From NCBI GenBank assembly GCA_009911715.1, contig CP047880.1, positions 1,364,001 to 1,428,000 of the forward strand: DNA of 64,000 nt. Direction: 5' to 3'. The translations under genes were made by a program, and so were the position numbers. Below, piece after piece: positions 6,042 to 51,168 of this stretch. This stretch comes from Methanomassiliicoccaceae archaeon DOK. GTDB lineage: Archaea; Thermoplasmatota; Thermoplasmata; Methanomassiliicoccales; Methanomethylophilaceae. The first letter of the stretch is position 1. Each line of letters starts with the position of its first letter. The notes below the pieces were generated by a model. That model was not told the DNA's origin and did not search any database. It was given only the letters and a program-made list of their open reading frames with translations.

Positions 6042-6072
6042 TAACAAGATGATATATCCCGCCACGATACAA

Positions 6073-7296
6073 ATGGTCGACGAGAAAGCTATTCAGGTCG
6101 CGCAGGAGAAATTCGGCGCACTCGTCAGAAAGCAGCTCGAGAGGGTCGAGAAACTGAAGGCCGAGGATGGCCCCATCGACTACTCCAAGCTGGACAAGCT
6201 CATCATCGGTGTCTGCGGCGGAGACGGGATCGGACCCTACATCTGCGCTTCGGCCCAGAAGGTCATGGAGTTCCTCCTGGCGGACAAGATCGCCGCCGGG
6301 AAGGTCGAGATCAGGCAGATCGACGGCCTGACTATCGAGAGGAGGGCCGAGGTCATGAAGGCCATCCCCGACGACACCCTCGAGGAGCTCAAGAAATGTC
6401 ACGTCATCCTCAAGGGACCCACCACGACCCCCGCCAAGGGCGACCCCTGGCCGAACATCGAGTCGGCCAACGTCGCGATGAGGAAGGAGCTGGACCTGTT
6501 CGCCAACGTCAGGCCCGTGTCCGTCCCCGAGCTCGGCATCGACTGGACCTTCTTCAGGGAGAACACCGAGGGATCCTACGCCCTGGGAAGCGACGGTTTC
6601 TTCGTGTCCGACGACCTGGCGATGGACTTCTGCGTGGCCACCCACCAGGGTACCGAGAGGATCATCCGCGCCGGATTCGAGCACGCCAAGAAGACCGGCA
6701 AGAACTACGTGTCCATCATCGTCAAGGCCAACATCATCAAGACCACCGACGGACTGTTCGTCGACCTGGCCGACAAGATCGCTAAGGACTACCCCGAGGT
6801 CAAGCACGACGTCTGGTTCGTGGACATCACCACAGCCAAGCTGATCGACCCCGCCAGGAGGAGCGATTTCAAGGTCTTCGTCCTGCCCAACCTGTACGGC
6901 GACATCATCACCGACGAGGCCGCCCAGATCCAGGGAGGAGTCGGAACTGCCGGTTCCGCCAACATCGGAAACAGGTACGCCATGTTCGAGGCCATCCACG
7001 GCTCCGCGCCCAGGATGGTCACCGAGGGACGCGCCCAGTACGCCGACCCCTGCAGCATGATCAAGGCCGTCGCCCTCATGATGAACCACATCGGCGAGTC
7101 CGAGAAGGGAAGGAAGCTCGAGATGGCCCTGGACATCTGTACCCAGTTCGAGAAGAAGCTGGTCATGACCGGAAGGTCCACCGGAGCCACAGGCGACGAG
7201 TTCGCCCAGTACGTCCTCGACACCATCCAGCGCCCCGACCTCGAGCAGGCCTGGCAGGGATACGTCGACGCGGCGATTGCCAAGGCGAAGAACTGA
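6073..7296 (+). CDS. icd: Isocitrate/isopropylmalate dehydrogenase family, probably NADP-isocitrate dehydrogenase
   Basis: This about 407-aa beta-decarboxylating dehydrogenase belongs to the ICDH/IPMDH superfamily and would oxidise isocitrate to 2-oxoglutarate for glutamate synthesis. Recognisable elements are GGDGIGPYI near the N-terminus, KGPTTTPAKGD, FRENTEGSYALG (substrate loop), KANIIKTTDG, YGDIITDEAAQIQGG and EAIHGSAPR (cofactor side). An ATG at 6049 falls within the TATA element GATATATC (6050-6057), so ATG 6073 is the better start, about 20-24 nt downstream. A hairpin follows the stop. Related dehydrogenases (homoisocitrate, isopropylmalate) are less likely given the length and motifs. 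Confidence 0.85.
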   Translation: MVDEKAIQVAQEKFGALVRKQLERVEKLKAEDGPIDYSKLDKLIIGVCGGDGIGPYICASAQKVMEFLLADKIAAGKVEIRQIDGLTIERRAEVMKAIPDDTLEELKKCHVILKGPTTTPAKGDPWPNIESANVAMRKELDLFANVRPVSVPELGIDWTFFRENTEGSYALGSDGFFVSDDLAMDFCVATHQGTERIIRAGFEHAKKTGKNYVSIIVKANIIKTTDGLFVDLADKIAKDYPEVKHDVWFVDITTAKLIDPARRSDFKVFVLPNLYGDIITDEAAQIQGGVGTAGSANIGNRYAMFEAIHGSAPRMVTEGRAQYADPCSMIKAVALMMNHIGESEKGRKLEMALDICTQFEKKLVMTGRSTGATGDEFAQYVLDTIQRPDLEQAWQGYVDAAIAKAKN

Positions 7297-7337: not shown

Positions 7338-7565
7338 GCCCCATCACACATTTCCCGTTCTCGAAGATACGTTGCACAGACGTTCGGCAACAGCACCCTT
7401 CACACAGCCTCCATCTCATCATTTCCACGAATAATGTACAATTGTTCGCTTATTATCGATAATTATATACACCTCCAGGATGAATTCTCATCCCAGTGCT
7501 TGTGCAGGAGGATCACCGATCTGACCTCTCCCTACACAGACACCACTGAAAAGAGGTGTATGGAT

Positions 7566-7661
7566 ATGGCAGAGACAAGCAAGAAGCACGACAGGGAGCT
7601 CAGGAGAAAGGAGAAGAAAGCCGCACGCGAGGCTAGACACAACGCCCGCAACGCGGCCTGA
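7566..7661 (+). CDS. Tiny charged protein, first of a three-member cluster
   Basis: This is a 31-aa basic, helix-prone peptide with an N-terminal Ser/Lys stretch followed by RRKEKKAAREARHNARNAA. The SD AGAGGTG at 7552-7558 selects ATG 7566 (7-nt spacing) over the ATG at 7560, which is too close. A strong TATA (AATTATATAC, 7461-7470) lies upstream, giving a leader of about 70 nt. The C-terminal motif KKAxREARHNAR recurs in the 37-aa protein at 8174. No family is recognised. The lack of any residues other than charged, Ala and few polar suggests a coiled coil or nucleic-acid/ribosome binding peptide (inference). Confidence 0.65.
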   Translation: MAETSKKHDRELRRKEKKAAREARHNARNAA

Positions 7662-7672
7662 TGCCCTCAATC

Positions 7673-7690
7673 GCCCGGCGTAAGCCGGGC
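7673..7690 (+). terminator. Hairpin after the first tiny gene
   Basis: GCCCGGC, loop GTAA, GCCGGGC forms a 7-bp GC stem 11 nt past the stop and is followed by CTCCCTTATTCTT, a T-rich run typical of archaeal/intrinsic 3' ends. Confidence 0.6.
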
Positions 7691-7830
7691 CTCCCTTATT
7701 CTTCCGATTATCATCATGTCCGTCATTTTTTACTGAAATCGTTATAAAAAAAACGAAGTGCTGACAGACTCAGTATATAGTATTTCTTCTTCGATTTATA
7801 TTCTGCGCTGCTTCCATAATTCGGTACGAA

Positions 7831-7887
7831 TGCGGAACCGCAGTCCGTAAATACCGATTCCGCAGACTTCACATCCAAGCGTCTGCG
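7831..7887 (+). promoter_or_regulatory. Structured leader with two mutually exclusive hairpins
   Basis: Upstream of the 64-aa charged protein, TGCGGAA (7831-7837) can pair with TTCCGCA (7858-7864), while CGCAGAC (7861-7867) can pair with GTCTGCG (7881-7887). The two stems share CGCA at 7861-7864, so only one can form at a time. Candidate TATA elements are at 7771-7778 and 7793-7800, which would place this in the 5' UTR. The arrangement resembles an attenuator or riboswitch switch, but no known class is recognised. Confidence 0.4.
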
Positions 7888-7945
7888 GGAAGGAAAGGCC
7901 CGATGAAGACCTCGACGGATCCACGGACACTAAGAGGTGTTTGAA

Positions 7946-8140
7946 ATGACCGACGAGAAGAAAGAGACAAGAGAGGAGAAGAAGGAGGAAAGGAAGGAGG
8001 CCCGCGAGAAGAGACACGAGGAGCGCGAGGCGAAGAGGGAAGAGAGAAAGGAGGAGCGCGAGAAGAAGCACGCCGAGCATGAGGCGGAGAAGGAGAAGAG
8101 ACACGCCGAGAAGGAAGCCAAGAAGGAGCACAAGGCGTAA
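7946..8140 (+). CDS. Small Lys/Glu/Arg-rich coiled-coil protein
   Basis: This 64-aa protein consists almost only of Lys, Glu, Arg, Ala and His, with repeated units such as EERKEAREKRHEEREAKR and EKKHAEHEAEKEKRHAEKE. It has no Gly, Pro or aromatic residue except His, so a single long alpha-helix is expected. An upstream in-frame GTG at 7937 is part of the SD (AGAGGTG, 7933-7939), so ATG 7946 is the start. The purine-rich strand and strong SD argue for real translation. Function unknown; it groups with the 31-aa and 37-aa neighbours. Confidence 0.65.
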   Translation: MTDEKKETREEKKEERKEAREKRHEEREAKREERKEEREKKHAEHEAEKEKRHAEKEAKKEHKA

Positions 8141-8173
8141 CGAGCGTCTTCACCTGACAAGGAGGTATGTAGT

Positions 8174-8287
8174 ATGCACATGAAGGAGCAGAAGCATGAG
8201 AGCAAGCACGACAGAGAGGAGAAAAGGAAGGAGAAGAAAGCGGAGCGCGAGGCGAGACACAACGCCCGCGAGAACCCGACCAACTGA
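8174..8287 (+). CDS. Tiny charged protein, third cluster member
   Basis: This 37-aa protein begins MHMKEQKHES and ends with KKAEREARHNARENPTN. A strong SD, AAGGAGGT at 8159-8166, lies 7 nt before the ATG. It shares the KxKKAxREARHNAR block with the 31-aa protein at 7566 and the KHDRE segment with both neighbours, so these are paralogues. It lies 33 nt downstream of the 64-aa gene, probably in one transcript. No family is recognised. Confidence 0.65.
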   Translation: MHMKEQKHESKHDREEKRKEKKAEREARHNARENPTN

Positions 8288-8418
8288 AAACTCCGACGAG
8301 GGACAGGCACACACCTGCTCCCCGCCTTTTGATTGTATAATTGTTTAGAAACGATCGCTTTGGACGCGTAACAGCCACGGCCCCATAGCTGGCGTCCCAT
8401 CGGAAAACCCGACTGACG

Positions 8419-8592
8419 TCACTTCTTCCTTCTGTCATCCTTCCTGTCCGGAACAGTGCACTGATTAAGAAAGTCCGGAGCCAGCTCGTTCCAGTCATCG
8501 AACAGACTGGCACCCTCGCCGGGCTTGGACATGTACGGCTTGTACTTCTCGTAAAGATCACTCCTCCGCTTCTTCTCCTCTTCGGAACACAT
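8419..8592 (-). CDS. Small hypothetical protein (57 aa)
   Basis: This is a leftward gene encoding a charged peptide with two cysteines (MCSEEEKKRRSDLYEKY... and FLNQCTVPDRKDDRRKK at the end). The SD GGAGGTGA lies 5 nt before ATG 8592; a GTG at 8601 overlaps that SD and is not the start. An AT-rich promoter region (8640-8670, TATA-like ATTATAGTTATTATA on the minus strand) lies upstream. It converges on the tiny-protein cluster. No family recognised; a weakly conserved regulator or stress peptide is possible but unproven. Confidence 0.55.
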   Translation of the reverse strand: MCSEEEKKRRSDLYEKYKPYMSKPGEGASLFDDWNELAPDFLNQCTVPDRKDDRRKK

Positions 8593-8814: not shown

Positions 8815-11424
8815 TCAGAGCTCGATCAGGATCAGCACGTTTCCGACCTGGATGGTCTCGACCGCCTTACCGTCCAGCATGAGGCGCTTGTCCAGCTCGA
8901 AGAACTCGGCTCCGACGGAGACCTTCTCCCCGTCGATGTCGATCTCGACCGCACCGTCAGCCAGAGCCGCGGCGGCGTCCGCGGGTGCCATGGCGGCGAC
9001 GGCGGACACGATGGCCTTGGCCTGGGCCTTGAACGCGGGTCCGAGCTTGGCATGGACCGGCTTGACCCCGACGACCTCCTCGGTCAGCTGTGCCTCGGGG
9101 GCGATGACGACCTCCTTGGCCTTCGTGGTCTCGGCGATGTCGTCCTTGGTGGACCCCAGCATCTCCGCGTCGGCTCCGACCAGCTCGATCATCGCCATCT
9201 CGGCGTTGAGCGGGACCTTCTTCTCGGATTTCCAGGCGCGGACGGCGGCGAGGACGTCGGACAGGAGCTCCCCTGCCCTCTCGGCCTCCTCGTCCTCGAG
9301 GACGGGCTCGGGCCATGATGTGAGATGGATGCTCCTGTTCCCGTCGATGGCCTTGAACCTCTCCTGGTAGACGTCCTCGGTCACGTGGGGCATGAACGGG
9401 GCGAGCATCTTCAGGCTGCCGAGGAACACGGTGTACAGGGTCCACCTGACGGCGTCGTCGCTCCTTCCCTTGACCATCTCGATGTAGTTGTCGGCGAGCT
9501 CGTGCCAGATGAATCCCTCGACCTCCTTCATGGCCTTGTCGAACTGGTAGACCTCGAAGTAGTCTGTGACGGCCCTGACGGTCCTGGAGTACTTGGAGAG
9601 GATCCACCTGTCGGAGGTCCTCAGCTGGGGCATGTCGGCGGGCACGTTCTCGAAGAACCTCCCGACGAACTGGCCGATGTTGAACACCTTGTTGCACAGC
9701 TTCCTGCCGCGGACGACGTCCTTCTCCCTGAAGGCGTGGTCGATTCCGAGGGAGCAGGTGGCCGCGTAGTACCTGAGCGCGTCGGCGCCGTAGTTCTCGA
9801 GGATCGGTATGGGGTCGATGACGTTCCCGATGGACGAGTGCATGGGGGTGCCGTCGGGGGCCATGATGAACCCGTGGATCATGATGTTCTCCCAGGGGAT
9901 CGAATGCTCGATCTGCTCCGCCCTGAGGATGGAGTAGAACGCCCAGGTCCTGATGATGTCGTGGGACTGGGGCCTCAGGGACATGGGGAACAGCTTCTTG
10001 TGGAGCTCGGGGTCCCTCTCCCAGAACGTGTTGTACAGAGACGATCCGGAGGAGTCCATCCAGGTGTCGAAGACGTCGGTGCATCCGACCAGCTTGCCTC
10101 CGCACACGGGGCACTTGTCGACCGGGGGCGCGTCGAGGGTGGGGTCGCAGTAGCACATCTCCTTGGTGGCGCAGACGGCGTGGCCGCACTTCTCGCACTC
10201 CCAGACGGGGATGGGCGTGGCGAAGATCCTCTGCCTGCTCAGGACCCAGTCCCACTCGAGGGAGTTGGTCCAGTCCTCGAGCCTGATCCTCATGAACTCG
10301 GGGAACCAGTTGATCTCCTTCGCCCTCTGCAGGATGACGTCCTTGAAGTCGGTGGTCTTGAGGAACCACTGGGGGACCTGCAGGTACTCGATGGGCGTGT
10401 GGCACCTCCAGCAGATGGAGACCTGCTGGGGGTTGTCCTCCTGCTTGACGAGGATGCCCTGGTCCTTCAGGTCCTGGATCGCCGCCTCCCTGGCCTCGAG
10501 GACGGGCATGCCGGCGTACTTCCCGGCGAGCTCGGTCATCCTGCCGCGCTCGTCGATGCCCTTCTCCATCTCGAAGTGGTACTTCATGACCCACTCGAGG
10601 TCGTCCTTGTCCCCGATGGTGCATATCATGACAGTTCCGGTACCGTAGTCCATCTGGACCTTGGGGTCGGCGATGACCTTGACCCTCTTGCCGAAGAGGG
10701 GCGCGATGAGGGTCTTGCCCACGAGCCCGGCCTTCTCCTTGTCGTCCGGGTGGACGGCGACCGCCTTGCATGTGCAGAGCAGCTCCGGCCTGGTGGTGGC
10801 GATGAGGACGTATCCGTCCTCGCCCTCGATCTGGAACTTGATGTAGTTGAGCTTGTTGACGTTGTCCCTGTACTCGACCTCCGCGTCGGCGAGGGCGGTC
10901 ATGCACCCAGGGCACCAGTTGACGGGGAAGTTCGCCTTGTAGACGAGGCCCCTGTTGAACAGCTCCACGAACGAGAGCTGGGTGATCCTCCTGTAGTAGG
11001 GGGCGTCGGTCTGGTAGTAGATGCTGGGGTCCATGCTCTCCCCCAGGATCTCGAAGTGGTGGGTCATCTCCTCGATGAACCCGTTGGCGTACTCCTCGCA
11101 GAGCCTCCTGTACTCCTGCCTGGGCGTGTCCAGCTTCGTGATGCCGTGCTTCTTCTCGACCTTGACCTCGATCGGCGTCCCGTTGACGTCGAAGCAGAGG
11201 GGGAAGAACACGTTGTACCCGCGCATCCTCTTGTAGCGGGCCGCGAAGTCGATGAGGGAGTACCCGGTGGCGTGCCCCAGGTGGAGCGATCCGGACGTGT
11301 ACCTCGGCGGGTTGTCGATGCTGAAGACTGGCTTGTCGGATTTGGGGTCGAAGCGGTAGATCTCCTCCTTCTTCCACATCTCCTCCCAGCGTTTCTCGAT
11401 GGATGAAGAGTCGTACTGTGCCAT
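8815..11424 (-). CDS. valS: Valyl-tRNA synthetase
   Basis: This 869-aa class I aminoacyl-tRNA synthetase attaches valine to tRNA-Val. The nucleotide-binding HLGH signature is in SGSLHLGHATGYS (about residue 45). The CP1 editing domain and two Cys-rich zinc-like sites follow: WCPGCMTALAD near 170, then CEKCGH with CPVCGGK near 420-450. The anticodon-binding alpha-helical domain is C-terminal. The KMSKS-position segment reads TPMHSSIGNVIDP (about 535), lacking both lysines. Length suits archaeal ValRS. The start ATG follows an AT-rich promoter shared divergently with the next gene. Confidence 0.95.
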   Translation of the reverse strand: MAQYDSSSIEKRWEEMWKKEEIYRFDPKSDKPVFSIDNPPRYTSGSLHLGHATGYSLIDFAARYKRMRGYNVFFPLCFDVNGTPIEVKVEKKHGITKLDTPRQEYRRLCEEYANGFIEEMTHHFEILGESMDPSIYYQTDAPYYRRITQLSFVELFNRGLVYKANFPVNWCPGCMTALADAEVEYRDNVNKLNYIKFQIEGEDGYVLIATTRPELLCTCKAVAVHPDDKEKAGLVGKTLIAPLFGKRVKVIADPKVQMDYGTGTVMICTIGDKDDLEWVMKYHFEMEKGIDERGRMTELAGKYAGMPVLEAREAAIQDLKDQGILVKQEDNPQQVSICWRCHTPIEYLQVPQWFLKTTDFKDVILQRAKEINWFPEFMRIRLEDWTNSLEWDWVLSRQRIFATPIPVWECEKCGHAVCATKEMCYCDPTLDAPPVDKCPVCGGKLVGCTDVFDTWMDSSGSSLYNTFWERDPELHKKLFPMSLRPQSHDIIRTWAFYSILRAEQIEHSIPWENIMIHGFIMAPDGTPMHSSIGNVIDPIPILENYGADALRYYAATCSLGIDHAFREKDVVRGRKLCNKVFNIGQFVGRFFENVPADMPQLRTSDRWILSKYSRTVRAVTDYFEVYQFDKAMKEVEGFIWHELADNYIEMVKGRSDDAVRWTLYTVFLGSLKMLAPFMPHVTEDVYQERFKAIDGNRSIHLTSWPEPVLEDEEAERAGELLSDVLAAVRAWKSEKKVPLNAEMAMIELVGADAEMLGSTKDDIAETTKAKEVVIAPEAQLTEEVVGVKPVHAKLGPAFKAQAKAIVSAVAAMAPADAAAALADGAVEIDIDGEKVSVGAEFFELDKRLMLDGKAVETIQVGNVLILIEL

Positions 11425-29974: not shown

Positions 29975-30048
29975 GATGGAGGGTGACCGACGCTGTTATA
30001 ACCGCGTTCGCTTTCACTCGTGAGGCTGAGAGATGGAGGGTGACCGAC
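29975..30048 (+). repeat. 17-bp direct repeat flanking the rnpB promoter
   Basis: GATGGAGGGTGACCGAC occurs perfectly at 29975-29991 and 30032-30048, 57 nt apart. The second copy is the 5' part of the RNase P RNA. The TATA GTTATAACC (29994-30002) lies between the copies. Confidence 0.8.
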
Positions 30049-30318
30049 GGTAGCCGCAGGGCAGCTGAGGAAGTTCCCCTCTCCAAGGGCAAGGTGGACG
30101 GACGCAAGTCCGTGCGGCGAGAGCCGTGGCAAGGGCACAGAAACGACACAGACCCGGTCCAAGGATGATCCGCTAGGCGGTGACGTTCCCGGGGATTTGG
30201 TGAAACGGCGACTCCCCACCGGAGCAAGTCCGCACAGCGGGGCAGACCGGCCCGGGACCCGCGGGTAGGACGCTTAGTTGAATGTCACCTGAAACAGAAA
30301 GGGGGCTACTACCATCAC
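30026..30318 (+). ncRNA. rnpB: RNase P RNA (archaeal type A)
   Basis: This is the catalytic RNA that matures tRNA 5' ends. Conserved blocks seen: TGAGGAAGTTCCCC (30066-30079, CR-I region), CACAGAAACGACA (30136-30148), GGGTAGGACGCTTAG (30263-30277) and the universal 3' block ACAGAAAGGGGGCTAC (30294-30309). GGTAGCC at 30049-30055 can pair with GGCTAC..C near 30304-30313, closing the P1/P4-side ends. A TATA at 29994-30002 predicts a start around 30024. Ends are approximate. Length of about 290 nt suits type A RNA. Confidence 0.88.
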
Positions 30319-30350
30319 TCGGCTCTTCATATCCACACGAGGGACCACAC

Positions 30351-46663: not shown

Positions 46664-46951
46664 TTATCCGCCTCCAGAGGGCATCATCTCGGAGATGTCG
46701 ACTTCCTGTGTCTCCCGCTTGATGTCCTCGATGGACTTCATCTGTCCACGCTCGGACACCTTGCGTTCCTTGAAGGAGACCTCGATGTACTCCGACGGAT
46801 CCGCGGGGATCAGGGTCGTGGCGTCGTAGTAGAGGTCGGTGAAGTCCAGTTTGACCCAGACCCTCCCGTCCTTCTCCTGGACGTCAGTCACCTTGCCCAC
46901 AGTGGAAGTGGGGGTGTACTTCAGCAGGTCGCCAACCTTCAACGAGATCAT
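46664..46951 (-). CDS. DUF2098 protein, last gene of the mcr operon
   Basis: This 95-aa protein begins [20 protein letters not shown] and contains [20 protein letters not shown], an SH3-like barrel pattern typical of the methanogen DUF2098 family. The acidic C-terminal tail ends MMPSGGG. Its ATG overlaps the mcrA stop (ATGA), so it is translated with McrA. A binding or assembly role for MCR is plausible from this coupling, but the family is uncharacterised. Confidence 0.8.
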
Positions 46952-48606
46952 CCCTTGATGACTGCGCTTCTCTCTCCGGCGGGCTGGAACTCCCTGAGAG
47001 CTCCACGTCCGATCTCCTTCGTCACGTTGGCGAAGTCGAAGACCAGAGCGGGGTCAGCGAAGGCGACCCTCACGAACGGGTTGGCGGTGAAGGCGTCTCC
47101 GCGAGCGACGTGGGCCGCCTTGGGGATACCGGTGTATCCGGACAGGTGACCGACGTTCATGGCGTAGTTGGGGTAGTTGGGTCCACGGACCTCCATGGGG
47201 AGACCCTCATCAGACCTGTAGGCGAACGAGTTGGCGGAACCGCACTGGTCCTGGAGGTCGAATCCGTAGAATCCGAGCCTTCCGGTCCTCTCTTTGTGCT
47301 GGAGCATGGAGAGGTACCAGCAGTTCAGACCGCAGTCGGCAACTCCAGTGGCCATAGCTCCGGCGATACCGGTGGCGGCAGCGGAGACGGTGGCCCTCTG
47401 GGATCCTCCGAAGTGGGTCTCCATGACGGCGGGGTAGCGCTCGTACATCTCGAGGGCGTAGGCGTTGACATCGTCACCGAGTTTGATGAGCTCATCCATG
47501 TTGGTGGGGTCCAGTTTGCAGAATCCTCCGTACCTGGATTTGATCTGGTCGATGGCGTAGTAGACGTAGTCCTCGAGGATGTTGTCGGTGTACGCAGCGG
47601 TGGCGTACTGGGTGAATCCGACTCCACCGGACATGTATCCACCGAGGTAGACCTGGTCGAAGACAGCGGCTCCGAGGGCGACAGCCTCGAGGGCGGCGCG
47701 TCCGGGGTCGTCGGGGTAGACACGGTCGGACTGAGCGATATCAGCCATGTATCCGAAGGGAATTCCTCCGGGCTCGTTGGGTCCCCTTGCACGCCTGGCG
47801 GGCATCATGGTTCCCATGGCGAGGGACTGGTGTTTGGCGGAGTACGCGAAGTCAGCGATGGCGGCCTCTCCGGCTGCGAGTTTGTAGGCGGAGATGAAAG
47901 CCATGGAGATCTGCATGGCGGCATGCCTGGAGACGGTAGCTCCATCCATGAGCCTTCCGACGATGGTGGGCACACGGACAGCCTGCATGAGGGTCTTTCC
48001 GATTGCTTTCTTCAGCTGCTCGGCCTGCTCGGCGGGGAACAGTTTGTTGATGTCGATGACGAACCTGGGGTCGATCTCGTCGATGAGCTCGTCGTCTCCG
48101 GAGTAGACTTTGACGTAGGAGTCCCAGACGAGGGCAGGGTTGACCTCGGCCATGTGCTCCTGAACGACAGCTCCACCGGGCATGGTGTGGTTGACGGTCT
48201 CGAGGTAGGTGTTGATGGTCTCAGGTGTGACCTCTTTTCCGAGCCTCCTCTCGATTGTCTGGTGAGGGGAGTCCAGTCCGACGAGGATGGTCCTCCTGAT
48301 GTCGTCCCAGGCCTGCTGGATAGCGCAGTTGTTGACGCAGTGCAGGTCATCGGCCTCGGCGAAGATGTCGGTGTGGGACAGCTGGTAGGGCATCCAGCTC
48401 CTCTGTCCGAGAGGAACTCCGATGTCCTCGTTCATCATGGGGATGCCACGTTTCTTGGCGATCTCCATGGCGGAGTTCTGGAACTCTACCTTGGACTTCG
48501 ACTGTTTCCATCCACCATAGCAGTAGTACTTGGTGGTCATGTCGGTGGGCTCTTCTTTGAACTTCTTTTTGCATGCTTCCATGAACAGCTTCTCTTTTCC
48601 TGCCAT
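46948..48606 (-). CDS. mcrA: Methyl-coenzyme M reductase subunit alpha
   Basis: This is a 552-aa subunit with the F430/substrate channel; MCR reduces methyl-CoM with CoB to methane. Recognisable regions are [29 protein letters not shown] (the methyl-His site), [18 protein letters not shown], and [20 protein letters not shown], which contains the Gly converted to thioglycine. ATG 48606 ([11 protein letters not shown]) is chosen with GGGAGAGTG about 8 nt upstream; an in-frame GTG at 48615 overlaps that SD. Order in the operon is mcrB-D-G-A. Confidence 0.97.
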
Positions 48607-48611
48607 GGTAA

Positions 48612-49388
48612 TCACTCTCCCTTAACCTTCCAGGGCTGGTATCCGCCCAGGGTCCTCAGCTTGTGGATCCTGAGTCCGTACATGGTGACCTCTTTGTCGT
48701 CCCTCATGTCGACACCATCGGCTCTGAAAATGGTGGTCCTCTTCTTCAGGTCGGACATTGCGGCGGGCTTGCCGACGGAGATCCTCCTGTCGAGGGGGAT
48801 GGCGACCTGGTCTTTCACATAGACGACCTCTTTCTTCTGGTCGTCCCAAACGTACCTCTGCCAGCCGTCGAACATCAGTCCGTGCTCGTCGAGACGGCAG
48901 GCGTGTCCGTGAACGGTTGCTCCCCTGATTCCGGTGAGGGCGGGGTCGAAGGTCTCGTTGTCGATCATCTCTTTGGCCATGACCTCAAGGTCCCTCTCAC
49001 GGACCTCGATGATCTGCCTTCCGGAGAGAGTTCCGGTGTCGACTCCCCTGTACCTGGAGAGGTACATCCAAGCCCTCTGGTAGGGCGAGATGGGGGCGAA
49101 GTAGACGGAGTCGGTGAACTGGATGTACCTGACACGGTCTCCGTGCTTGGCTCCCTCGATGGGGACGACGAGTTTCCTGATGGGGCAGTCGGGCTCCTTT
49201 CCCTCCTCGATTGGGGGGTGGATGGACTTGTAGTCCTCTCCAGGGTTCCTGTGTCCCATGATCCTGACGACGTCATCCATGGCGACGTCGCGAAGTTTCT
49301 TCAGTTTGACTTTCGGGTCCATGTATCTGCGCCTGTTTTTAGCAGGTGTAGTGGTTCCCGGATAGAACTGCCTCTTGTAAGCTGCCAT
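48612..49388 (-). CDS. mcrG: Methyl-coenzyme M reductase subunit gamma
   Basis: This is a 258-aa gamma subunit. It contains [57 protein letters not shown] and [19 protein letters not shown], all typical of McrG. AGGAGTGAAT a few nt upstream supports ATG 49388. It ends 5 nt before the mcrA start. Length matches the family. Confidence 0.97.
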
Positions 49389-49389
49389 T

Positions 49390-49830
49390 TTATTCACTCC
49401 TGTAATCATGAAGCGTGGGCTTGTATTTCGAGTACCTTCCAACCTGAAGCGTGTAACCGTGCTCTATGGTCGCGTTGCACGCCTCTTTGATCTCCTCCAG
49501 CCTCTTGTCCAGAGTCTCCTCGTCCTCGACATCCAGCTCAATGTAGAACCCTCCGACCAGGTAGCGGAGCTCGACCTCCTGACCTCCAACGTGGATCACC
49601 TTGCGCTCTGAGTGATTGTTGGGAAGGCCCTTGCCAGGTCCGCTGTTGATCGTCTTGGGAAGGCTCTCGCCGGTCATGTTGATCTGCCTGATGTTCGGGA
49701 TGATGTCCAGTGCGTTGAGCACCTTCTCGGTCGTCTCCGCGCTGAGCAGGCGGTTCGTGAGGATCTGGACCTCCGGGAGCGGTACCCCGGCGTAGTCGGC
49801 TGCGGGAGCGGATTTACTCGTCATACTCAT
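49390..49830 (-). CDS. mcrD: Methyl-coenzyme M reductase operon protein D
   Basis: This is a 146-aa McrD family member, an assembly factor that binds apo-MCR rather than a catalytic subunit. Segments seen: QILTNRLLSAETTEKVLNAL, GPGKGLPNNHSERKVIHV, LRYLVGGFYIELDVEDEET. It may start at ATG 49830 or 49824; GTGAGG is placed better for 49824. It lies between mcrB and mcrG with spacings of 1-3 nt. Confidence 0.94.
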   Translation of the reverse strand: MSMTSKSAPAADYAGVPLPEVQILTNRLLSAETTEKVLNALDIIPNIRQINMTGESLPKTINSGPGKGLPNNHSERKVIHVGGQEVELRYLVGGFYIELDVEDEETLDKRLEEIKEACNATIEHGYTLQVGRYSKYKPTLHDYRSE

Positions 49831-49833
49831 GCC

Positions 49834-51168
49834 TCACAGTTTCTTCTTCACCTTCTTGGCCTCGGCAGCGACGTACTGCATGGGCTTGCTGAACTCTTCG
49901 ATGTCTCCGAAGACCTCTTTGAAGAGACCGGATGTAGCCTCAGCGGAGAAGGTCTGGGTTCCGCCGTCCAGGCAGTTTCCTGCGGTGATGGCGGGAATCA
50001 CGACGCCCTTGGCGTGCCTGGTAACGACGTGGTTTCCGTGGAACAGACCGGGTCCGCCTCCACCGTAGATGGAGTGGGAGAAGAAGGACATTCCAACTCC
50101 GACACCCTCGGCCCTTCCGTAGTCGACACCGGGAAGTCCGGACTCGTGCTCGAGAAGATCGTTGTAGTACAGGATGGTACTGGGAACACCCTGGGCAGCC
50201 CTGGCGGCTCCGACGTTGACCATAACGGCGGCAACCATTCCGGCGGCGGCGTAGGCGTTCCATTTCGGAAGGTCGTCGGTGGTGTAGACCTTGTATCCGC
50301 TGGGCAGGGTCTCTTTCACGCGGATGACTCCGTCGTCGATGGCCCTTCCCATCAGAGACTCGATAACGGTTCCGACGGTTCCGGTCTTTCCGTTCTTTTT
50401 GACGAGGGAGTAGACCATGTTGTTGGCGTTGAGTCCCTCGTAGGCGAGAGAGAGCAGAGCGCCCCTCTCGAAGTTGCCGATGGTGTCTCCCATCTCGTAG
50501 GATCCGCACTGCTCGAAGATGGCGGAGAGGGCGGTTCCCTGCATGGCGTTCCTGTTGACAAGAGAGACAACGTGGTTGGCCATGATGTTCCTCAGGGCGA
50601 ATCCGGCTCCCTCGTTGTTCTGGGGGACCTCGAGGATGGATTTGACGTTGGCGCCCTGGAATGTGATGGTCTGGGGGTACCTTCCCCAAACGGCGGCTTT
50701 GACCATGTTGGCTTTGTACATCGGAACGTCGAAGGTGTCGATGATGGCCTCGGTGGTCGCGGCGGCGGTGACGGTGAATCCGGTTGTGTACTCGACACCG
50801 GCGTTCATCCTGTCCTCGGGGACGATGACGACCAGGTTCTTTCCGCCAGATTTCACTTTGACGACAGTGTCGTCTCCGTCGTAGACCTGAACTGCGTTCT
50901 TGACGATCTCGGCGATCTTGTCCGCGTTCTCGACGAGAGGGATGTCGATCTCCTTTCCCTTGATGACAACTCCGCCTCCGGTCATGGAGCCGGTCTTGAG
51001 GGCTTTCTCGATGCCGGCCAGGTTGACGGCGACGGTCCTCTTTGTCAGGGACACGATCTTCTTGATCGCGTTGTTGCGCAGCGGACTGATGGCTTCGAGC
51101 GGAACGTCTTTAGCGATGCGTTTGCCGCAGTCGTCATACAAGTCAACTACGTCCTCGTATTTTGGCAT
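49834..51168 (-). CDS. mcrB: Methyl-coenzyme M reductase subunit beta
   Basis: This is the 444-aa beta subunit. It starts [18 protein letters not shown] and contains [40 protein letters not shown] and [20 protein letters not shown], typical McrB. A very strong SD AAGGAGGT is 5 nt before ATG 51168. It is first in the operon, with a hairpin-bearing leader of about 50-55 nt upstream. Confidence 0.97.

Follow-up and report, generated by a model that had tools for sequence, protein, structure and literature searches.

Conserved charged micro-proteins with predicted two-faced helices and leader hairpins, encoded between IDH and valS in a Methanomethylophilaceae archaeon

SAH (ER/K) domains combine a high content of E, K and R with one continuous helix that has no hydrophobic seam, and they rest on opposite charges spaced at i,i+3/i,i+4; ideal SAH repeats place only or mostly opposite pairs at i+4. 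The SERF/4F5 small EDRK-rich factors, which are known from eukaryotes, are tiny and highly charged but partly disordered, and SERF2 binds RNA (PMC11565804). Group 3 LEA proteins, including Deinococcus DosH, are hydrophilic and helical with an 11-residue periodicity, and they carry an apolar stripe; their 11-mer motif has apolar positions 1, 2, 5 and 9 (PMC8123400). The archaeal nucleoid proteins (Alba, HU, MC1, histones and a 74-aa Methanomassiliicoccales candidate) are small and basic, and for Methanomethylophilaceae a lack of any known nucleoid-associated protein has been reported (PMC7613761). Finally, autogenously regulated ribosomal protein mRNAs encode small basic proteins behind rRNA-like leaders that hide the SD.

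Here, we compare with these systems a set of three ORFs in a 64-kb window (the whole stretch of DNA that was analyzed, 64,000 nucleotides) of the genome of a gut-type methanogenic archaeon, which consists of a single 1.89-Mb contig. ORF1, ORF2 and ORF3 (Table 1) all lie on the + strand between two genes named by reading their sequences, one that we take to be of the isocitrate/isopropylmalate dehydrogenase type (IDH; 6049-7296, + strand) and one that is presumably valS (8815-11424, - strand). A further ATG at 7560 is too near the SD, and the start of ORF1 was taken as the ATG at 7566. The preliminary description of this locus reported three tiny, extremely charged proteins with strong SDs, and comparison with a sample of the genome confirms how unusual they are. 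When the 483 small ATG ORFs with an SD in 464 kb (the 64-kb window and a further 400 kb of the same genome, taken as 20 pieces of 20 kb each) are ordered by charged-residue content, the three hold ranks 1, 2 and 3, with 84, 68 and 58%. The next ORF in rank (54% charged, R-rich) overlaps a long ORF. The first and third proteins were said to share KKAxREARHNAR; the common motif is in fact longer, KHDREx(R/K)RKEKKAxREARHNAR, and the DNA of the two ORFs is 83% identical across 66 nt. ORF2 lacks this motif and has its own leader. Sequence comparison thus places ORF1 and ORF3 together in one family and ORF2 in a second, separate subfamily. Between ORF3 and valS is another small ORF (8419-8592, - strand; 57 aa, MCSEEEKKRRSDLYEKYKPYMSKPGEG...; SD CGGAGGTGAT), which has one homologue within the genus (G020, 63% identity) and no family match. 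Elsewhere, the window contains an archaeal RNase P RNA (30028-30320, + strand; Rfam RF00373, 201.8 bits) and, at 46948-51168 on the - strand, ORFs that we take from reading to resemble the methyl-coenzyme M reductase genes mcrA, mcrG and mcrB.

Table 1. Features of the charged mini-gene locus (window coordinates; promoters, hairpins, terminators and helices are predicted).
Feature	Position	Strand	Remarks
TATA box of ORF1	7463-7470	+	TTATATAC; 25 nt before conserved leader block
Conserved 5' leader of ORF1	7496-7565	+	70 nt; resemblance to pre-16S rRNA 3' end suggestive
Leader hairpin 1	7500-7539	+	Same stem in four sequences, with covarying pairs; few sequences
Leader hairpin 2, over SD	7540-7559	+	ACACC (7540-7544) pairs with GGTGT (7555-7559)
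SD of ORF1	7552-7558	+	AGAGGTG
ORF1	7566-7661	+	31 aa, MAETSKKHDRELRRKEKKAAREARHNARNAA; net charge +6; predicted helix
Terminator hairpin of ORF1	7673-7690	+	GC-rich, then T-rich stretch; relatives have different hairpins in the same place
TATA box of ORF2-ORF3 unit	7847-7854	+	GTAAATAC; 24 nt before leader
Leader of ORF2	7879-7945	+	67 nt; related to G023 leader
SD of ORF2	7933-7939	+	AGAGGTG
ORF2	7946-8140	+	64 aa; net charge +1; predicted two-faced charged helix built of 54-nt (18-codon) repeat
SD of ORF3	8159-8166	+	AAGGAGGT
ORF3	8174-8287	+	37 aa; net charge +3; ORF1 paralogue
Terminator hairpin after ORF3	8300-8322	+	GC-rich, then CGCCTTTT

Each ORF is preceded by an SD, and the separate TATA box and terminator previously ascribed to ORF1 are both present. 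All seven units compared have a TATA-like box and, 23-25 nt downstream of it, a conserved block (GTGCTTGYG for the ORF1 type, GCGTCTGCRG for the ORF2 type), and the constancy of this gap suggests that the block is probably the mRNA 5' end, 60-74 nt before the ATG. Identity among the ORF1 leaders is 63-80%, compared to 47-61% for the DNA upstream of them. Downstream of each unit is a GC hairpin, often followed by T's, the sequence of which differs by genome. A sigma-70 promoter scan was given no weight, having no meaning for an archaeon. Read from these signals, the locus is two tandem transcription units, and the charged micro-proteins that they encode form a family that is young and restricted to one lineage.

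Orthologues of ORF1 are present in three further genomes, lying directly downstream of IDH in the first (G027, L004), on the same strand as IDH but 6.5 kb further downstream, beyond a transporter block, in the second (G015, L003/L039), and in an unrelated context in the third, which belongs to another genus (G046, L005/L040). No sign of recent horizontal transfer to this last genome is seen, the synonymous divergence of ORF1 (0.77) not being below that of IDH (0.33). Near the same copy (L040 6447-9628, - strand), a gene read as a subtilisin-like protease adjoins one read as an AAA ATPase; such pairs resemble defence-type modules. ORF2 and ORF3 are found together in a syntenic arrangement, IDH - ORF2 - ORF3 - valS, in G023, and G016 has a diverged ORF3-like ORF (MGKVADAKAKRKERKAAREQRREAREKAGSA) in the same place with similar upstream DNA. 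In addition, two genomes (G004 C129:3086-3202, L148; G021 C145:1938-2054, L149) carry a charged 39-aa mini-ORF, MGYFDEKERAERKAKREAKKAEREQQKAAKKAEKEKAKA, which occupies the position of ORF3 beside valS in the same orientation, is unrelated-looking and is found in those two genomes only. Charged mini-genes may thus arise or settle preferentially at this valS-side site. The contig of the closest relative by valS (G014) ends at this place. Altogether, the genes occur in 5 of 147 genomes of the order, with positional analogues in 3 more (G016, G004 and G021), and nothing was found outside those genomes among 390 genomes of the phylum, absence being weak evidence for sequences this short. REARHNAR-type peptides, for which a wider search among methanogens had been suggested, are not general in that group, being confined to a few Methanomethylophilaceae.

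The way in which these sequences vary points to selection on the encoded proteins. Pairs of ORF1 orthologues show 0-5 non-synonymous versus 5-8 synonymous differences (dN/dS 0-0.1), and the chance probability of so few amino-acid changes is at most 0.0006 in five of the six pairs, the remaining pair giving 0.055. ORF3 and its G023 counterpart differ by 5 amino-acid changes when 13.5 are expected (P<1/5000 for synonymous bias), and 1 change is seen in the first 24 codons of ORF2 compared to an expected 4.2. Conservation of the peptides in close relatives, one of the two points on which the preliminary description was open to refutation, is thus found for all three genes. On this comparative evidence, ORF1-ORF3 are genuine, selectively maintained genes. 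Their description as an undescribed family is also borne out as far as tested, since there is no match in Pfam at E<=1 (LEA and SERF/4F5 families included) and none in NCBIfam, PHROGs or the PDB, where a PHROG hit (E 0.03) and a PDB hit (E 4.3) carry no weight. Nor did the Pfam, NCBIfam and PDB searches yield any profile or sequence match between the ORFs and ribosomal proteins (eL41 among them) or known archaeal nucleoid proteins. Viral or mobile relatives are absent from IMG/VR and from phage and plasmid collections, on which ground a virus or plasmid origin was rejected.

The preliminary description proposed that the proteins may be single alpha-helices, and the helical part of this proposal agrees with structure prediction. 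AlphaFold2 models ORF2, with one sequence as input, as a single helix spanning residues 3-63 (pLDDT 95) and ORF1 as a helix spanning residues 3-30 (pLDDT 86), models that are support and not proof because charged sequences are readily predicted to be helical. The proteins are almost without hydrophobic residues, the only one in ORF2 being the initiator Met, and 48 of the 64 residues in ORF2 (75%) are E, K or R. In its composition, in the absence of a hydrophobic seam and in its one continuous predicted helix, ORF2 therefore resembles SAH domains. It fails, however, the i,i+4 salt-bridge test on which these domains rest: opposite charge pairs at i,i+4 are under-represented (12 versus 25 like pairs), and the opposite-pair score at i,i+3/i,i+4 is at or below that of about 99% of shuffles. 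Like charges are instead gathered on one face of the modeled helix, the basic half having 26 positive and 3 negative residues and the acidic half 4 positive and 21 negative. The resulting charge moment of 0.425, for which the best angle is 100 degrees, as for an alpha-helix, is matched by none of 3000 shuffles and by none of 20,726 segments in the genome background (maximum 0.188), and the G023 copy has a moment of 0.445. The moment is also significant for ORF3 (P 0.001), marginal for ORF1 and the G016 ORF (P about 0.04-0.05), and not significant for the G004/G021 mini-ORF (P about 0.08). Within ORF2, segregation is clearest in the first 18-residue stretch (0/5000 shuffles), weaker in the second (P 0.014) and not significant in the third (P 0.33). 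Provided that the helices form, charges are segregated on opposite faces in ORF2 and less so in ORF3. Moreover, the 54-nt tandem repeat of ORF2 corresponds to 18 codons, or exactly five helical turns, and the ORF2 proteins of the window and G023 differ in length by 18 residues, which suggests that gain or loss of repeats would keep the two faces in register.

The leader of ORF1 appears to be structured. RNAalifold, run unguided on the four leaders, gives two hairpins, in the second of which ACACC pairs with the SD (GGUGU), and reports four covarying pairs with both sides changed. This second hairpin is kept in 4/4 ORF1 leaders bar one end pair, with loops of varying length. A hand-drawn fold pairs 95.8% of cells compared to 27-58% when it is slid along the alignment, and its covariation across the four leaders is not significant against shuffles (126/500), a control that cannot separate the fold from chance because most pairs are invariant. 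When 147 genomes were searched with a covariance model of the leader, the four ORF1 copies were recovered with E-values between 1e-16 and 1e-20, and no other hit was convincing; the other candidates inspected (in G124, G123, G147 and others) are unrelated sequence, mostly in coding frames, and were set aside as chance. No Rfam element was found in the leader, even at E<=5.

The same leader also shows some likeness to pre-16S rRNA of this organism, at its 3' end. The 16S rRNA 3' end, with the mature terminus placed by the conserved CCTCCT, reads ...CCTGCAGATGGATCACCTCCT, then ACGCAGGGTGGGG. Directly downstream of the mature end (L152) is ACGCA, and then a strong hairpin, GGGTGGGGTTCAAACCCCACCC. 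In a comparison made post hoc, with four related leaders and this organism's 16S only, the G015 leader, GCAGAAGGATCACC-(about 10 nt)-CTCCTACGCAG, matches the pre-16S 3' end at 13/15 and 11/11 positions, in order, and its gapped score of 18.15 exceeds those of all 37,036 background windows (best 17.75). In the same comparison, the ORF1 leader at our locus matches at 13/15 positions, reached by 0.2% of background windows (gapped, 0.5%; 191/37,036), the G046 leader at 11/11 (0.02%; gapped, 1%) and the G027 leader at 10/11 (1.9%; gapped, 5%). ORF2-type leaders show no likeness to pre-16S. The pre-16S end and the ORF1 leader fold alike, with a weak hairpin followed by another hairpin. The resemblance of the ORF1 leaders to the pre-16S 3' end is suggestive, being strong in G015 and weak to modest at the locus studied here.

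Of the mechanisms considered, the best supported is that the proteins are RNA- or ribosome-binding charged helices with self-controlled translation, a possibility that we favor tentatively on the basis of the sequences and helix models. The basic face would lie along RNA, most likely small-subunit rRNA, and the acidic face would point outward or engage the basic faces of neighboring helices. With the SD of the ORF1 mRNA predicted to be held in a hairpin behind a leader resembling the pre-16S 3' end, protein in excess of its target could attach to the leader of its own message and lower translation, as happens with ribosomal proteins. ORF1 differs from the autogenously regulated systems in that it is not a recognized ribosomal protein and its rRNA likeness is suggestive only, and a core ribosomal role is hard to reconcile with so patchy a distribution. 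The preliminary description had already proposed that the proteins may act on nucleic acid or ribosomes, and the pre-16S-like leader lends this suggestive support. A more specific and decidedly improbable version would make the ORF1 family a small-subunit factor new to archaea, its 31-aa helix sitting on the (pre-)16S 3' end, including the anti-SD, with a part in maturation or dormancy; the leader would mimic this site for self-control, and ORF2, a two-faced polyelectrolyte helix that assembles with ORF1, would be a protein of new design.

It is also conceivable, although unlikely, that these proteins protect the cell under stress in the manner of LEA, Hero or SERF proteins, as hydrophilic helices that have no defined binding site and that either shield other proteins or form condensates with RNA. 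Group 3 LEA proteins are brought to mind by their composition, by the lack of hydrophobic residues and by the 11-residue periodicity of ORF2 (charge autocorrelation at lag 11, 0.56), and SERF2 is a tiny charged protein able to drive RNA condensates (PMC11565804). ORF2 has, however, almost no apolar residues when set against the LEA_4 11-mer, so that the apolar positions of the motif (PMC8123400) are missing; ORF1-ORF3, at 31-64 aa only, are without an apolar stripe and match no LEA or SERF/4F5 profile, and ORF1 is kept residue by residue (24/31 invariant among four orthologues), beyond what a need for composition alone would impose. Rather less likely is a role as miniature nucleoid-associated proteins, with basic faces binding DNA and acidic faces linking neighbors, a reading made attractive by the absence of known nucleoid-associated proteins in this lineage (PMC7613761) and by the basic character of ORF1 and ORF3. 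Genes present in so few genomes of the order are not a general substitute, the net charge of ORF2 is close to neutral, the ORFs are much shorter than archaeal nucleoid proteins and patchily distributed, and a proteomic screen named another, widespread candidate of 74 aa (PMC7613761). That the function resides in the leader as a regulatory RNA, with the peptide secondary to it, is very improbable given the strong protein-level selection, even though the leader appears structured and its conservation begins at the presumed start site. Two other readings, that the ORFs arose by chance in repeat DNA rich in G and A (an idea suggested by the tandem repeat in ORF2) or that they are leader peptides or attenuators of the neighboring enzymes, are scarcely credible in view of the substitution pattern, the syntenic orthologues and the promoters and terminators of their own, and also because valS converges on the ORFs and IDH lies upstream and ends before them.

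The ORF1-ORF3 genes are real, unusual in design and, as far as our tools show, undescribed. Charged proteins of such small size are missed by annotation and by proteomics alike, and the comparative evidence indicates that one such set is real and strongly selected in a lineage reported to be without known nucleoid proteins. As a helix design, the two-faced charge pattern is unusual, and from the likeness of the leader to rRNA follows a specific hypothesis, that the protein may bind the 16S 3' end and control its own synthesis, which is directly testable.
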